DNA of 64,000 nucleotides. Origin: a virus. The stretch spans positions 1 through 64,000 of IMG/VR virus record IMGVR_UViG_3300043398_000272. One strand, 5' to 3'. The notes beneath the pieces were generated by a model. The model made no database searches, was not told the DNA's origin, and saw only the letters and a program-made list of their open reading frames with translations. The first letter of the stretch is position 1. Every line of letters begins with the position of its first letter. Of this stretch, positions 40,180-58,749 are shown one piece after another. The position numbers and the translations under genes were made by a program.

Positions 40180-41985
40180 TTATTTCATTCCGCTAAATAA
40201 CCACATATATTGCCCAGTTGGGTCTTGCATATTTTTTGACACAATTGGGTTAAATTTAGGTCTAGGGGTTGCTTGTTTATGTCTATTTGCGTTGCTCACA
40301 AAACCAGTTCTTTTAAGGTCCTCGTCTTGAGCTTGTTTTGTTTCAGAAGCTCCATTCAACCAAGCACTAAGCATAGCTTTGCTTTGCTTCTCTAAACGTT
40401 CAAGGTTTTTAAATGAGTGCTCTAAAACCCAAAGAGCCATGGCCAATGCCATGATTAAGTCATCGTGGAAACCATCTTGGTGGTCTGGACGACCATTTTT
40501 ATAGATAAATGTTTCCATCTCAGTTAAGGTTCTTTCAGAACGAATCTTTATTTCACCAGTTCTAACCTTTAATTCAAGATTTGCTATCATTGGAAGACGA
40601 ACTGAGTTAGCGTGAAAACCTGGTGTTTTTGCGGCTTTACTAAAGCTCACCAATTCTCTTTGCTTATGTGATAATATCTTACCATCAGTAGTATCATAGT
40701 GTAATCTTTTATAGTTGAATTCAAGTAGTTTTAAGACAGTAGACACCCCCAAACCACCAGTTACGTCAACAACTGTATAGGCTTTATACATTTCACCATA
40801 TTCTTCAACCAATTGAGCTAATAAGTCTGGTGGTGTTTTACCTTGATACTCCAATACTTGTTCCATGGTTGTAAAATCAACAACAATAATTGTTGAGGTA
40901 TCTTCACCGTCACCTCTAGCTACGTCAACACCCATAACATATTGGTGACCCTCTTGAGGTAACTCCCAAATCCATGTAGATGACGTTTCACCCATCTTAA
41001 TAACCGTGATTGGTTCTTTTACGTTGTATTTTCTTTGGTTAGCGATATCTTTCTCATCAATAACGTTACCACCAGAACCAATAAATGATACATCAAGCTC
41101 TTGCGCAATCATTCTAGCGTCATTGTTCATACCTAAACACATTTCTTCATACCATGAAGATGTTGGTTTCCAATCATCGGCTAATCTTCTTTCATAAGAG
41201 TCGAATGTAAATTCAATTTCTGGTTCAGAAATATCGCCTTTAATCCATCTAAGGTCTTTATTATACCTTAAATCCTCATACCAACGCATTTCAATAATGT
41301 TAAAGTTGTTTTCTTTGGCCTTTGCTTGTTTGTATGTTTTATAATAAAGCGCATCGTGACCCCTAGGTGTTGAGATAAGCATTGCTTTACCACCAGTACC
41401 TAACGCAGTTAAAGCCGCACCAAATACTTCATCACCGTTATCAATGAACGCCGCTTCGTCCATAATCAAATATGTTGGTGTGAAACCACGTAAAGCGTCT
41501 TTAGATGTAGCAACCGCTTTTACACGACTACCGTTAGGTAATTTGATTTCTTTTTTAGAATCAGTAACAAATATTGATTTCTCTTCTTTTTTCTCAGTTC
41601 CGTAATATTCAGAACCCCAGAACCATCTTGGTAATTGTGACAAAAAATCTTTAATCTTAGCCAAGAATTCAAAAGCCAATTCTTGTTTGTTAGCGATAAT
41701 CAATACCGCTTCTGGGTTATCTCGGTCAGCTGTAGCGACCTTAATAGCCATATACGCAGCCGTTGTTGTTGATACACCAGCTTGTCTTGGTTTTGTCACT
41801 AAATTAAACCTATGTTTTTCGTAAGCATAGATGATTTCCTTCTGACGAGGAAAAAGTTTAAAGTTAACAAACCCTTCTTGAGTTTTATCAAATGTTTCTA
41901 AAAATGTTTCAATTGCATAGATTGGTGATTGTAAACATTTGGTAAATTCTTTTAATATTTCTAGCCTTGATAATGGAGCTGTCAT
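40180..41985 (-). CDS. terminase large subunit, gp17-like
   Basis: DNA packaging motor and headful nuclease, 601 residues. The ATG at 41985 (MTAPLSRLEIL) is selected because the late-type motif lies 14 nt upstream of it; the upstream ATG at 42021 would put the motif inside the gene. Walker A-like VTKPRQAGVSTTTAAYMA, Walker B YLIMDEAAFIDN, motif III LISTPRG, and nuclease acids in GVDVARGDGEDTSTI and HDDLIMALAMAL are present. It binds the portal and cuts concatemeric DNA. Confidence 0.95.
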   Translation of the reverse strand: MTAPLSRLEILKEFTKCLQSPIYAIETFLETFDKTQEGFVNFKLFPRQKEIIYAYEKHRFNLVTKPRQAGVSTTTAAYMAIKVATADRDNPEAVLIIANKQELAFEFLAKIKDFLSQLPRWFWGSEYYGTEKKEEKSIFVTDSKKEIKLPNGSRVKAVATSKDALRGFTPTYLIMDEAAFIDNGDEVFGAALTALGTGGKAMLISTPRGHDALYYKTYKQAKAKENNFNIIEMRWYEDLRYNKDLRWIKGDISEPEIEFTFDSYERRLADDWKPTSSWYEEMCLGMNNDARMIAQELDVSFIGSGGNVIDEKDIANQRKYNVKEPITVIKMGETSSTWIWELPQEGHQYVMGVDVARGDGEDTSTIIVVDFTTMEQVLEYQGKTPPDLLAQLVEEYGEMYKAYTVVDVTGGLGVSTVLKLLEFNYKRLHYDTTDGKILSHKQRELVSFSKAAKTPGFHANSVRLPMIANLELKVRTGEIKIRSERTLTEMETFIYKNGRPDHQDGFHDDLIMALAMALWVLEHSFKNLERLEKQSKAMLSAWLNGASETKQAQDEDLKRTGFVSNANRHKQATPRPKFNPIVSKNMQDPTGQYMWLFSGMK

Positions 41986-41999
41986 AATAATTGTTTTAT

Positions 42000-42008
42000 T
42001 ATAAATAT
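42000..42008 (-). promoter_or_regulatory. late-type promoter motif (sense ATATTTATA)
   Basis: Exact motif, 14 nt before the terminase ATG at 41985. Confidence 0.65.
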
Positions 42009-42038
42009 GCCATAAACGCATAAAAAGCCCATTATCAA

Positions 42039-48875: not shown

Positions 48876-50174
48876 TTAATTGCTTAAAGGTGCTTTAATT
48901 GCTGGGTGTGATTTATAATTATCTACAAAAAAATCTTTAGGTCTTAATACCACACCATACGTTTTATCAAATAACCAAGATTCAAACCCATCCAAGTGCG
49001 TCATGTATTTAAGATTAGGTAGTGGAAATGGCTCTCTAGTTCTTTTTGGTAATAGAGATATGTATTCTGCTTTAGCGTCTGGGGTTAATGCATCCATACC
49101 ACTTTCTTGTAAATGTGTGTTTATTTCCTCTTCTGTATATTCTCTACCTATTTGTAATTTGGCTTGCTCAATGTGGTTCAAATATAAATGTACATCACCC
49201 AAATTACCAATCAACTCATCAGCTACCATATTGACTTCTCTAGCAATTATTTCAAGTAATAAACCGTAAGAGGCAATGTTAAATGGTAAACCTAAAAACG
49301 TGTCTACACTTCGTTGATTCCACATCAGTGAAATAGCTTTCTTAGGTAGCGTCTCTAATATTTCCTTTTCTCTAGTTCTGAGATTTGCTGCAACTTCATA
49401 ACTTTGAGCCATAACTGCGGCTGTTTTCTCTTCATTAACCCGTCTTAATTCTTCACTTAATGGTAATAGTTCGCTAGTATTAAGATTTCGCGTATAAACT
49501 TGAAATCCGTAGTGACATGGAGGTAACACCATCGAATCCATTTCACCCACATTCCAAGCCGAAACCATTAGTCGTCTTGAATCTGGATTTGTTTTAAGGT
49601 CGTTGATTAGATTTGCTATTTGGTCAAATGTTCTATAATATCTATAGCTTTCTTCCATATCAGCACCGCAAATTATTTCATCAATACCATAAACATCTTC
49701 CTTTTTTTCTCTAGTTAGATAAGTCCATTCTCTCCATTGCTTACCATAAATTGGACCTAACTCACCCCACTTTTCAGCAAAGTCATCATCTGTTTTGATT
49801 TTATTGATGAATTCTTCTTTTGACAAAACTTTCCATTCTTCCCCGTCAACACTTGATATTGAAGATTGCATTCTTTTACTAAAATTCATTTTACTTTCGT
49901 AATTCTTATAAGCGTCACCGTTCCAAATATTGCATCCATTATCAACCAAATATTTAATATTGGTGTCTCCTTTTAAGAACCAAATAAGTTCTGTAACGAT
50001 ACCTTCCCAATGCATCTTTTTGGTTGTAAGCAACGGGAAACCTTCTGACATTTTGTGTCTGATTTGTCTTCCGAATACTGATAAGGTACCAGTACCTGTA
50101 CGGTCGGATTTTCTCACCCCATTGTCAAGAATGTCTTGAAGGAGTGCTGTGTATTGTTTATCTAAATTATTCAT
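48876..50174 (-). CDS. thyA: thymidylate synthase ThyA with internal insertion
   Basis: Converts dUMP to dTMP with methylene-THF. Conserved parts: N-terminal RKSDRTGTGTLSVFGRQIRH, the nucleophile in MVLPPCHYGFQVY, NQRSVDTFLGLPFNIASYGLL and the folate-binding GDVHLYLNHIEQA. At 432 residues it is far longer than the usual 264-300: between FQVYTRNL and ISLMWNQRS there is an insertion of about 50 residues whose core (SYEVAANLRTREKEIL) looks like a UVR-type helical hairpin, and further extra sequence follows YEEEI near 350-375. Pairs functionally with dut at 3590. Confidence 0.95.
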   Translation of the reverse strand: MNNLDKQYTALLQDILDNGVRKSDRTGTGTLSVFGRQIRHKMSEGFPLLTTKKMHWEGIVTELIWFLKGDTNIKYLVDNGCNIWNGDAYKNYESKMNFSKRMQSSISSVDGEEWKVLSKEEFINKIKTDDDFAEKWGELGPIYGKQWREWTYLTREKKEDVYGIDEIICGADMEESYRYYRTFDQIANLINDLKTNPDSRRLMVSAWNVGEMDSMVLPPCHYGFQVYTRNLNTSELLPLSEELRRVNEEKTAAVMAQSYEVAANLRTREKEILETLPKKAISLMWNQRSVDTFLGLPFNIASYGLLLEIIAREVNMVADELIGNLGDVHLYLNHIEQAKLQIGREYTEEEINTHLQESGMDALTPDAKAEYISLLPKRTREPFPLPNLKYMTHLDGFESWLFDKTYGVVLRPKDFFVDNYKSHPAIKAPLSN

Positions 50175-56089: not shown

Positions 56090-56821
56090 ATGATAGAACA
56101 ATTATTGGATAGTAAATATGGAGAATACCTTGTAGGGTTGGATATCTATGAGAATAGAACTAGCCTAAAACTGTCTAGGATTGTCATTAAACCAGAATAT
56201 CGTAATACTGGTGTTGGTACTAAGATAATGGAAGATTTGGTCAAATATGCAGACCAAAACACCAAAACAATATCTCTAACCCCAGCAAGCGATTTTGGAG
56301 GTAACAAAAATCGCTTGCTCCAATTCTACAAAAGATTTGGATTCAAACATAACAAAGGCCAATATAAAAGCTATGAGGTCATGGATACCATGATACGCTA
56401 CCCAAAACTAATGGAATCAAAAACATTGATTAAATCTCTTTTGAGAGAATTCATACACAAAGAAAATAGCCATGCACACGCATGTGCAGACTTTGTTAAT
56501 TTTGCAAAAGGATTTTTAGGGATAGAAGACGCCGTTAAAGTTGTTTTAAAATTTGAAAGAACACCAGATTTAGTTACAACAGCTTACTACGACCCAGAAA
56601 AACACTTGGTTGTTGTCTACGCAAAGAATAGGGCGCTAGTTGACGTATGTCGTTCAATAGCGCATGAATTAGTTCACCACAGGCAAAACCTAGACGACCG
56701 TTTATTAGATATTGTTAAAGACGGTTCAGATGGTTCCCCAATAGAAAATGAAGCCAACTCAATTGCTGGTGTTATGATGCGCCAGTATGGTAGGTTACAT
56801 CCAGAAATATACGAAAGCTAA
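56090..56821 (+). CDS. GNAT acetyltransferase-zinc metallopeptidase fusion with internal LLRE tag
   Basis: A 243-residue two-domain protein. Residues 1-105 are a GNAT fold: SRIVIKPEYRNTGVGTKIMEDLV (acetyl-CoA loop, R-N-T-G-V-G) and LLQFYKRFGFKHN. Residues 113-121 read LIKSLLREF, the tag seen at the N-termini of the 31 kb genes. Residues about 122-243 have SIAHELVHHRQN with H192-E193-L-V-H196, a zincin HExxH, and ENEANSIAG near 219-227 as a likely third ligand. If the prohead protease cuts after Glu120, the peptidase would be released. Not known elsewhere to me in this order. Confidence 0.65.
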   Translation: MIEQLLDSKYGEYLVGLDIYENRTSLKLSRIVIKPEYRNTGVGTKIMEDLVKYADQNTKTISLTPASDFGGNKNRLLQFYKRFGFKHNKGQYKSYEVMDTMIRYPKLMESKTLIKSLLREFIHKENSHAHACADFVNFAKGFLGIEDAVKVVLKFERTPDLVTTAYYDPEKHLVVVYAKNRALVDVCRSIAHELVHHRQNLDDRLLDIVKDGSDGSPIENEANSIAGVMMRQYGRLHPEIYES

Positions 56822-57672
56822 TGCCATACACAGTAAAAGGAAAATGCGTTTATAAGAAAGACGGTGGGGCCAAAGTAGGTTGCACCAAAGGTAGTGTGGA
56901 TAAATATCTAGCAGCTCTCCATGCCAATACCAATGAATCAGAAAATAAAATAGTCGGTGGTAAAGCTGATAAATTATCGCTTGAGGATATTGCTAAAAAG
57001 TTTGACGTTACTGTTAATTACCTTAATCAACAAATTGAAAAAGGGGTTAAGGTTGAAATTGAACATACTAAAGATGAAGAAAAAGCTAGAGAGATAGCTA
57101 TGGACCATTTATCAGAGTTTCCAGATTATTATGAACGACTTGAAAAATTGGAAACACAAGCTAAAAAAGATTGGGGTGAATCAGAAAAAAAATCGCTCAC
57201 TTCAGAAGGACTTGTAAAGCGTTTGGTTAGACAAAAGTTAAATGAATCTATTGAATCTTTCACAAATTTTGTAGCAACAAGAGACCCACATTTTTTTGAT
57301 AAAGCAAAACAAAACCCAGATTTTGTTATGTTGGAACCAGAACAAGTCCATCACTACCCATTCAGAGACGCCCAACCAAATAAATGTGAGACGAATGTTT
57401 TCCTATTCTGTAAAGATAGAGGAAAACATATGTGGCCAGTAGGTGGTTATTTATTCGAAAGAGATTTCCCAGTAGAGCATTGGTGGGTTTACGATTCAAT
57501 GTTAGACCAATATCTTGATGTTACACCATCGTCAGGTCCCAAAAGCGATATTACTGGTTATGCTGGTATTGTTCGAAAAGATTTGGGTGAAGAAATTAAA
57601 AACGCTAAAAGCGTATGGGATGTTGATTTCTTTAAGGGTGGTAATGTATACTCTTGGTATTTTAAACACTAA
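56821..57672 (+). CDS. DUF5661-like multi-domain protein with internal tag
   Basis: A 283-residue protein starting on the last base of the previous stop. Residues 1-40 have KGKCVYKKDGGAKVGCTKGS (two Cys) with KYLAALHAN, a motif common in phage virion proteins; about 45-115 match DUF5661 (VKVEIEHTKDEEKAREIAMDHL, then FPDYYERLEKL). Residues 131-143, LVKRLVRQKLNES, look like the LLRE tag with L-N-E/S as a cleavage site. The C-terminal domain (about 150-283) is compact alpha/beta with several Trp and His and no recognised motif. Convergent end overlaps the GNAT gene by 11 nt. Confidence 0.55.
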   Translation: MPYTVKGKCVYKKDGGAKVGCTKGSVDKYLAALHANTNESENKIVGGKADKLSLEDIAKKFDVTVNYLNQQIEKGVKVEIEHTKDEEKAREIAMDHLSEFPDYYERLEKLETQAKKDWGESEKKSLTSEGLVKRLVRQKLNESIESFTNFVATRDPHFFDKAKQNPDFVMLEPEQVHHYPFRDAQPNKCETNVFLFCKDRGKHMWPVGGYLFERDFPVEHWWVYDSMLDQYLDVTPSSGPKSDITGYAGIVRKDLGEEIKNAKSVWDVDFFKGGNVYSWYFKH

Positions 57673-58141
57673 CTTTACCAACGTACTCAAAACTACCACA
57701 CACTCGCTTATTATCGGCGTAATGGTTGTTGTAAATCTTTTCGTGTTTAATATCAGTGCGTAATTTTTTATGCTTACTAGTAGGTTTCCACAGTTTAGAA
57801 TCTTCTCTGTAGGCAATCATTCTAGGGTGACTAGTTCTTGAAAAATATCTATGACCTTGGTCCAAATGTATTTGACCTATAGCGTCTGAAAACCGCACAC
57901 CAATACCCATTCCTTGATAGTCTGGCAGAATTACAGTTCTGTGACCTCGCCATGCATTTTTTAGTGTACCGCTAGGCATAGTTACTGTGGCACCAAATGC
58001 AACAACTCTTCCATCCCAAACACCAACATAACATCTTGATGCTTTATTTACGTTTCCATCTAAATAGTGATGGTCTTTAAACATGGCCCAACTATCATAG
58101 TCTGTGCGATATATTTCGATGTTGATAGTTGGGCGTCTGAA
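57662..58141 (-). CDS. GNAT acetyltransferase domain, -1 frame continuation of the ABC ATPase
   Basis: Coordinates give the frame from the slippery site to the stop (159 residues after the slip); an internal ATG at 58084 gives a 140-residue form. The domain has SRCYVGVWDGRVVAFGATV, VILPDYQGMGIGVRFSDAI (acetyl-CoA loop QGMGIG) and YFSRTSHPRMIAYRED. The codons between the slip site and 58084 (RRPTINIEIYRTDYDSWAMF) are clearly part of the same domain, so independent translation from 58084 would truncate it. Matches the acetyltransferase half of ABC-ATPase/GNAT fusion proteins. Confidence 0.7.
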   Translation of the reverse strand, partial: FRRPTINIEIYRTDYDSWAMFKDHHYLDGNVNKASRCYVGVWDGRVVAFGATVTMPSGTLKNAWRGHRTVILPDYQGMGIGVRFSDAIGQIHLDQGHRYFSRTSHPRMIAYREDSKLWKPTSKHKKLRTDIKHEKIYNNHYADNKRVCGSFEYVGKVSV

Positions 58142-58749
58142 AAAAAACCATCTAACAGTTCACCAGTATCTGTATTTATTACCCAGTCTGGCTCTAACCA
58201 ATCTACAATATCGTGGTGACAAGTTGAAATGACTAAATTATGGACATCATTATTTTTGACATATCTTGATAGAGCAACACTGGCAGCTTTAGCCACATTT
58301 CTATCAACAACACTAGTGTACTCATCAATCACAGCCCCAGTCTTAATCTTCCTAGCCAAATCAGCTCTAAACTTTTCACCATTAGACAAGACACTATAAG
58401 GTTTATACCAAGATGGAATAGTATTAAAACCCACAGAACTTAATTTTGTGATGCCGTCTTCGGGTGTCTCAAAATGTGATATAACGGCTTTTGAAGAATC
58501 CCATTGAGGTGTTTCTTCCGTACCAAATGATTTAAGAAGCGTTGATTTACCAGAACCGCTGGACCCAACAATTACACCTATTTTAAAATTTTCTGGTAAT
58601 GATTTAGGAAGTTGCCATGGATAGAAAAATGACTCCCCAGTAAATAAACAATCAAACGATTTTTCGCTGGCCTCTATGAATTCATCTCTTGAAACACTTG
58701 ATTTTAAAGGGGTTTCACACCTTACCAACTTCTCGATAACTTTGGTCAT
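58060..58749 (-). CDS. ABC-type ATPase (0-frame product)
   Basis: A 229-residue soluble ABC ATPase: Walker A GSSGSGKSTLL (62-72), signature LSNGEKFRADLARKI (121-135), Walker B AVIDEYTS with Asp142-Glu143 and His switch in STCHHD (176-180). No membrane domain gene is near. Residues after 203 (the slip site) are a 26-residue tail with no homology look; a -1 shift instead yields a 362-residue fusion with the GNAT domain. The late-type motif at 58763 lies 13 nt upstream of the ATG. Confidence 0.8.
   Translation of the reverse strand: MTKVIEKLVRCETPLKSSVSRDEFIEASEKSFDCLFTGESFFYPWQLPKSLPENFKIGVIVGSSGSGKSTLLKSFGTEETPQWDSSKAVISHFETPEDGITKLSSVGFNTIPSWYKPYSVLSNGEKFRADLARKIKTGAVIDEYTSVVDRNVAKAASVALSRYVKNNDVHNLVISTCHHDIVDWLEPDWVINTDTGELLDGFFSDAQLSTSKYIAQTMIVGPCLKTITI
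58086..58147 (-). promoter_or_regulatory. probable -1 programmed frameshift signal
   Basis: In the mRNA sense: slippery U_UUU_UUU (58147-58141) in the 0 frame after a Gly codon, a 6-nt spacer UCAGAC (58140-58135), then a perfect 12-bp stem GCCCAACTATCA/TGATAGTTGGGC (58134-58123 with 58097-58086) closed by a 25-nt loop. The -1 frame continues into the GNAT domain. Confidence 0.75.

Follow-up and report, generated by a model that had tools for sequence, protein, structure and literature searches.

An ABC ATPase gene of a phage very probably encodes two proteins, the ATPase alone and the same ATPase joined to a GNAT acetyltransferase, with the second made by programmed -1 ribosomal frameshifting. 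The gene lies in positions 1 to 64,000 (hereafter referred to as the window) of the IMG/VR viral record IMGVR_UViG_3300043398_000272, which is 64,409 bases long. A T4-type major head protein gene is present in the window, as are portal and terminase genes, and Microcystis phage Mel-JY01 and Flavobacterium phage immuto are among the nearest named phages by head protein; the phage is T4-like and probably infects Bacteroidetes.

The ABC open reading frame (ORF) possesses a Walker A motif (GSSGSGKS), a signature motif (LSNGE) and a Walker B motif (VIDEYTS), and its residues 204–229 form a 26-residue tail that is specific to the 0 frame, and thus to the short product. Both the ABC and the GNAT ORF match, in order, the single profile phrog_11143 (357 positions). 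This is a single-chain family covering both domains, whereas the window chain is split by one frame. Canonical -1 frameshift sites combine a Z_ZZN or X_XXZ_ZZN motif with a structure starting about 5–8 nt downstream (PMC4066793). The first-pass annotation of this sequence had reported a U_UUU_UUU heptamer in phase with the ABC frame, a 6-nt spacer, and a perfect 12-bp stem enclosing a 25-nt loop, and every one of these elements is exact (Table 1). The slip site reads GGT TTT TTT TCA in the ABC frame, and is an X_XXY_YYZ heptamer in phase with the upstream frame. The annotation also described the -1 frame as open and domain-like ahead of the first GNAT ATG, and this stretch indeed encodes a sequence, RRPTINIEIYRTDYDSWAMFKDHHYL, that can be aligned to the GNAT part of natural fusions. 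The fusion of 362 amino acids comprises 203 residues through the end of the slip site and the 159 residues of the -1 frame.

Table 1. Coordinates of the ABC-GNAT gene and of its frameshift site in the window.
Feature	Position	Strand	Remarks
ABC ATPase ORF, 0 frame, 229 aa	58060..58749	-	PF00005; phrog_11143 profile positions 8-193
GNAT acetyltransferase part after -1 shift, 159 aa + stop, starts TTC AGA CGC	57662..58141	-	PF00583; phrog_11143 profile positions 199-352
Slippery heptamer U_UUU_UUU, within T8 run 58140-58147, in phase with ABC frame	58141..58147	-	
6-nt spacer UCAGAC (DNA TCAGAC)	58135..58140	-	
5' arm of 12-bp stem, GCCCAACTATCA / GCCCAACUAUCA	58123..58134	-	
25-nt loop between stem arms	58098..58122	-	
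3' arm of 12-bp stem, TGATAGTTGGGC / UGAUAGUUGGGC	58086..58097	-	
Dual-coding overlap: 0-frame tail (SDAQLSTSKYIAQTMIVGPCLKTITI*) and start of GNAT frame	58060..58147	-	synonymous variation depressed in both frames in relatives
First ATG of GNAT frame, inside GNAT fold after first strand	58082..58084	-	main start unlikely

In the proposed mechanism, ribosomes would translate the ABC ATPase up to GGU UUU UUU, where most would stay in frame, add the tail and stop, releasing the 229-residue ATPase. With the help of the 12-bp stem, a fraction would slip back by one base on U_UUU_UUU and read on through the GNAT domain to yield the fusion. The signal and its phase are directly visible; I infer the slippage itself, its rate and the role of the stem from the sequence.

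Searches of viral contigs provided a close set of 49 distinct loci, including the window, from separate metagenome contigs. The ABC part of the relatives is 59–80% identical, and the GNAT domain is found in the -1 frame, at the same place, in all 49. The slip sites are all in phase and occupy one column of the ungapped alignment; they consist of T9 in 45 loci, T8 in one (the window) and A_AAU_UUU in three, the T8 differing from T9 by a base substitution rather than an indel. Phenylalanine codons at the slip site are TTT in 95 of 95 cases, for a background of 0.79 elsewhere in the genes (P 1.4e-10 if independent, this and other close-clade P values being indicative only, since the sequences are related). 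The 0-frame tail is open in 49/49 loci, where resampling codons while keeping the -1 protein gives an expectation of 10.8, and the observed-to-expected ratio of synonymous variation is 0.17–0.65 across the overlap in both frames, compared to about 0.8–1.6 outside it. Purifying selection thus acts on both the site and the frame relation, as is expected of programmed -1 frameshifting, and the stem is much weaker evidence than this frame relation shared by 49 loci. The two products proposed at first pass, of 229 and 362 residues, are therefore strongly supported, as far as signal, phase and frame conservation can indicate.

The main rival considered in the first-pass annotation, an indel introduced by sequencing or assembly in the homopolymer of an ordinary fusion gene, is effectively ruled out by the same comparison. 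The frame relation recurs in 49 distinct loci, three of which have A_AAU_UUU in place of a T run, the overlap is constrained in both frames, and isolate genomes and named phages show the same relation. This outweighs the facts that homopolymers are error-prone, that the sequences are consensus contigs only, and that two relatives with T10 are in frame. These two members, L024 and L132/L133 (the latter from two metagenomes), are nested in the window clade, and L024 and L132 keep the tail frame open despite their in-frame GNAT, which fits mixed messages arising from slippage on the run.

The stem of the window is real and well placed. It starts 6 nt downstream of the slip site, within the canonical range, and the fold has a z-score of -6.55 if the slip site is included and of -4.53 if it is left out, none of 200 shuffles being as stable; a perfect 12-bp stem at this spacing was obtained in 7 of 200,000 mononucleotide shuffles. 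It is however not the conserved core of the signal. Among the 49 close loci, strong stems in the same columns are found only in the window, in the three A_AAU_UUU relatives and in L035. Their letters differ (GCCCAACTATCA, GGCCAGACAT, GACCAGACAT, GACCAGATATC and GGCCAGACATTGT), each being accompanied by its complement (G-U allowed), with z-scores of -4.5 to -7.0 for the window and the A_AAU_UUU trio, and of -3.4 to -7.0 when L035 is included. A strong stem is absent from 44 of the 45 T9 relatives, and five other T9 relatives folded for comparison show none (z about 0). A clade-wide conserved stem was also considered and rejected, as its covariation score in the 49 sequences was reached by 99 of 500 shuffles (not significant). 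The first-pass annotation had proposed to look for the slip site and the stem in homologues: the slip site and the -1 relation are conserved, but the strong stem is restricted to certain lineages. It can reasonably be supposed that a stem accompanies the shorter or weaker slip sites, while a T9 run is enough alone, by ribosomal and/or transcriptional slippage.

Transcriptional slippage is possible on runs of T9, and perhaps of T8, and the shift in the T9 relatives may therefore not be ribosomal. Extended to the window, this alternative has RNA polymerase adding one U on T8/T9 in some transcripts, with the stem being incidental; I consider it unlikely, although it deserves to be weighed. It draws on the 45 of 49 loci with T9, a length associated with slippage (Tn, n>8) in PMC3711429, on the stemless T9 relatives, and on the T10 members, whose in-frame GNAT and open tail are expected if the run mixes transcripts either way. 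The window, however, combines T8 with a strong stem, the three A_AAU_UUU relatives have no long run, so that a long homopolymer is not found in all members, and other lineages use A_AAA_AAG with A6, or A_AAG_GGC. In addition, PMC3711429 gives a single direction of shift as a criterion for ribosomal over transcriptional recoding, and the shift is only ever -1 across the 79 distinct frameshifted loci of the wider family (described below), the two T10 members being in frame. The combination of T8, a canonical heptamer and a stem therefore favours ribosomal -1 frameshifting for the window.

A third explanation is that the GNAT domain is produced separately, by translational coupling or internal initiation, and that no fusion is made. 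An in-frame ATG at 58084 is widely conserved, and several named phages are annotated with two genes; nonetheless I judge this very improbable. In the natural fusion, the first GNAT strand lies before this ATG, and a protein started there would be missing a conserved strand; the -1 frame upstream of the ATG encodes conserved protein. There is no Shine-Dalgarno (SD) signal upstream of 57 window genes (3 hits, versus 3.2 by chance), and among the relatives with an in-frame fusion only 2 of 136 loci have an ATG placed 4–12 nt downstream of the SD hexamer, which makes internal initiation unlikely in that class.

A family set was then built from 80 genome loci and further viral loci, fetched using the ABC alignment. 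It contains 237 distinct ABC-GNAT loci, with the GNAT domain in frame 0 in 158 and in frame -1 in 79. Two loci first scored as +1-shifted, L166 and L200, were set aside, as their GNAT matches are partial. The -1 class includes Bacteroidetes chromosomes (Tenacibaculum, Bizionia, Chryseobacterium, Flavobacterium and Capnocytophaga), Bathyarchaeota, Chloroflexota, jumbo phages, Enterococcus phage 9184 and an Oenococcus phage (L161). Bacteroidetes, Bathyarchaeota, Enterococcus and jumbo phages represent separate -1 lineages with a canonical in-phase A_AAA_AAA or A_AAA_AAG, sites also found in Chloroflexota; the site is A_AAA_AAG in phage 9184 and A_AAG_GGC in the Oenococcus phage. No canonical heptamer was found at the -1 junction of Lactococcus P335, several Streptococcus phages and Thomasclavelia TR-TP1, where there is an in-phase tetramer, U_UUU or G_GGG. 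In a maximum-likelihood tree the window clade and its two T10 members form one group (SH-aLRT 100) and the Bacteroidetes clade another (99), and the tree requires at least eight changes between the in-frame and -1 states. Only one new member was obtained from 148 sampled genomes belonging to the order of G002.

Several of these loci have further features. Among L158, L160–L163 and L165, those from Lactococcus and Streptococcus phages share CAG GTT TTT C at the -1 junction, whereas the Oenococcus relative L161 has A_AAG_GGC instead; the start of the ABC gene is overlapped by some 21 nt of an upstream gene, which matches ParB_N in P335. In L158–L166 (P335, TR-TP1, GBSVK-E1, Oenococcus, Javan, 9184 and MismyG) the gene is annotated as two, under names as varied as 'iron siderophore transporter', 'DNA polymerase' and 'hypothetical', and the GNAT N-terminus is missed in several. 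In Tenacibaculum phage pT24 (L167) the ABC-GNAT is in frame, its GNAT part is interrupted by a TGA, and the annotation gives two ABC proteins; Streptococcus phage Javan420 falls outside the -1 relation, as the best match to GNAT there is partial and lies in a different frame.

The last two cases are what would be expected of a decaying gene, in which the frameshift is neutral or inactivating. Such decay is highly improbable here, given that the ORFs are intact, the overlap is under synonymous constraint, the slippery site is conserved and the arrangement has occurred repeatedly and independently.

Single-chain fusions had been cited at first pass as a precedent. They do exist, but calling them plain fusions is probably wrong, as most carry an RF2-like +1 signal and nearly all an open tail frame. 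Over the 24 codons that lead up to HHYL, 141 of 147 in-frame loci keep the tail frame open (this frame is +1 with respect to the fusion), versus 72.9 expected from their own codon usage, while the third frame is at chance (34, versus 31.5 expected). The typical junction DNA is NGG [A/G]GG NNN CTT CGG CGA CC. An in-phase SD-like hexamer is present in 136/147 loci, with its arginines written NGG in 126 cases (33.3 expected). A leucine is found 3 nt after the hexamer in 101 loci and is encoded by CTT in 98 of these, for 17.6 expected; among genes with a GC content above 0.55, CTT is used in 40/40 (5.6 expected). The complete NGG-RGG-NNN-CTT signal is thus found in 98 of 147 loci, where 0.0013 per junction would be predicted from how often the motif occurs in the rest of these loci, and in 98/98 the tail frame is open from the CTT to HHYL. 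In most members of each class, the end of the CTT corresponds to the end of the T9 run, 66 nt before the HHYL codon. A hold-out set from a later fetch shows the same pattern, with open tails in 57/57 (34.1 expected) and CTT in 47/47 (5.3 expected).

The +1 site of the RF2 gene (prfB) consists of the SD sequence AGGGGG, 3 nt, and CTT (PMC12421855), and the in-frame relatives possess an AGGGGG-like SD, 3 nt and CTT at the junction, with the same spacing. In contrast to prfB, the CTT is followed by CGG/AGG and then CGA, and the shift would shorten the protein. No in-frame RF2 stop was found directly after the CTT, this position being occupied by CGG, AGG, TGT and others; without this stop codon the junctions resemble a prfB-type site and are not classed as one, and as sense codons replace it, any +1 shift is expected to be less efficient than in RF2. 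This +1 signal is absent from the window itself. In the viral in-frame loci L046–L069, L154 and L292 the SD hexamer is kept, the CTT is replaced by GAA AGG or CAA AGG, and the tail frame is mostly open. I infer that the default product would be the fusion in in-frame genes, which would obtain the short ATPase by a +1 shift, and the short ATPase in the window clade, which would obtain the fusion by a -1 shift.

The use of SD sequences may bear on which direction is used. The gene leaders of the window are A-rich, as in Bacteroidetes, which together with the lack of SD use suggests a Bacteroidetes host. SD use is 3% in the -1 aquatic clade and 6% in the Bacteroidetes loci (below shuffled), versus 41–47% in the SD-CTT loci (above shuffled). 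In F. johnsoniae, SD use is rare and shifting at prfB is poor (PMC12421855), and an SD-dependent +1 site would for these reasons work poorly in Bacteroidetes-like hosts. A -1 run or heptamer could thus replace the SD-dependent +1 site where SD sequences are little used. The Firmicutes phages with the -1 relation have SD use of 68%, so loss of SD use is not the whole explanation of direction.

Across the relatives, the two-product design looks conserved, by a backward or a forward slip at the same spot. The same two products would be kept while the direction of recoding switches, with an RF2-like +1 shift giving the short ATPase from in-frame fusions, at the site where the window clade shifts by -1. 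It seems reasonably likely that the ABC ATPase-GNAT family is obligately two-product in phages, bacteria and archaea, and that the pair is selected while the recoding turns over, with at least eight switches: an SD-dependent, RF2-like +1 shift on a sense codon in SD users, and a -1 shift on A/T runs or on a heptamer with stem in others, including Bacteroidetes and phages without SD use, always at the same point of the protein.

The window site has a number of known counterparts. As in the -1 frameshifting of dnaX and of the IS3-family element IS911, it has an in-phase heptamer, a hairpin at 6 nt, and two products with a common N-terminus; unlike these, its stem is lineage-specific and relatives reach the same products by a +1-type signal. 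The magnesium chelatase described in PMC3711429 is also an ATPase gene, found in bacteria and archaea, with overlapping ORFs, a -1 shift at A_AAA_AAR and natural fusions; here the ATPase is of the ABC type, and the natural fusions carry a +1-type signal. The ABC-GNAT gene is not among the cases named in the papers cited here on -1 frameshifting. I found no literature link between ABC-GNAT and frameshifting, an earlier listing under 'ABC transporter' being possible in the figures or supplements of Antonov 2013 (PMC3711429).

The pairing of an ABC ATPase with a GNAT has been predicted to acyl-modify a DNA base, in a study by Iyer and colleagues (Aravind's group) that names Tenacibaculum phage pT24 (PMC7824862). 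The gene analysed here has the same two domains, and pT24 is among the relatives found; following that prediction, the likely reaction would be acyl modification of a nucleic-acid base. No frameshift is mentioned in that description, and two-product expression would be a new element. The predicted structure of the natural fusion L132 has a pLDDT of 91.6 and places the junction immediately ahead of the first GNAT strand; in the short product, this strand and a helix are predicted to be replaced by the tail. Structure searches returned generic ABC and GNAT folds, with a full-length match only to a Leptospira phage LE4 fusion, and a PDB sequence search gave no match for the ABC-GNAT protein. Membership of a known defence system was rejected, as the PADLOC hits are weak matches to ATPase motifs only. 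A set of 49 homologous genes precedes the ABC gene, mostly in planctomycete genomes and Firmicutes phages, the P335 member matching ParB_N; this ParB_N-containing cluster does not adjoin the window gene.

ABC ATPases act as dimers, and a mixture of short and long products may therefore form assemblies in which only some subunits carry an acyltransferase arm. By analogy with dnaX and magnesium chelatase, such a mixed ATPase assembly would be the most likely purpose of the two products.

Taken locally, the window site is a further instance of known -1 frameshifting; the family pattern would be a new form of recoding if the +1 half is confirmed. Conserved programmed frameshifting is rare beyond a few cases such as dnaX, prfB, IS elements, phage tail chaperones and magnesium chelatase. 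It would be striking, if true, to find an RF2-like +1 site in a gene other than prfB that is conserved across phyla and GC contents. Matched -1 and +1 versions in one family would allow one to ask if the ratio of the two products is held constant by selection, and how the loss of SD use forces a change of recoding mechanism. Recoding would also explain the split or odd annotation in the P335, Javan, TR-TP1 and 9184 records, and biochemistry on the predicted DNA-modifying ABC-GNAT enzyme should include both proteins.

Three other genes of the window have unusual features. A second GNAT gene is found near the ABC-GNAT gene (56090–56821, + strand), with HELVHH in its C-terminal half, which is metal-dependent peptidase-like. 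In the thymidylate synthase (48876–50174, - strand) 431 residues align to 279 profile positions, and in the terminase large subunit (40180–42021, - strand) 493 residues align to 341 positions, each apparently corresponding to ~150 extra residues, possibly an intein or another insertion.
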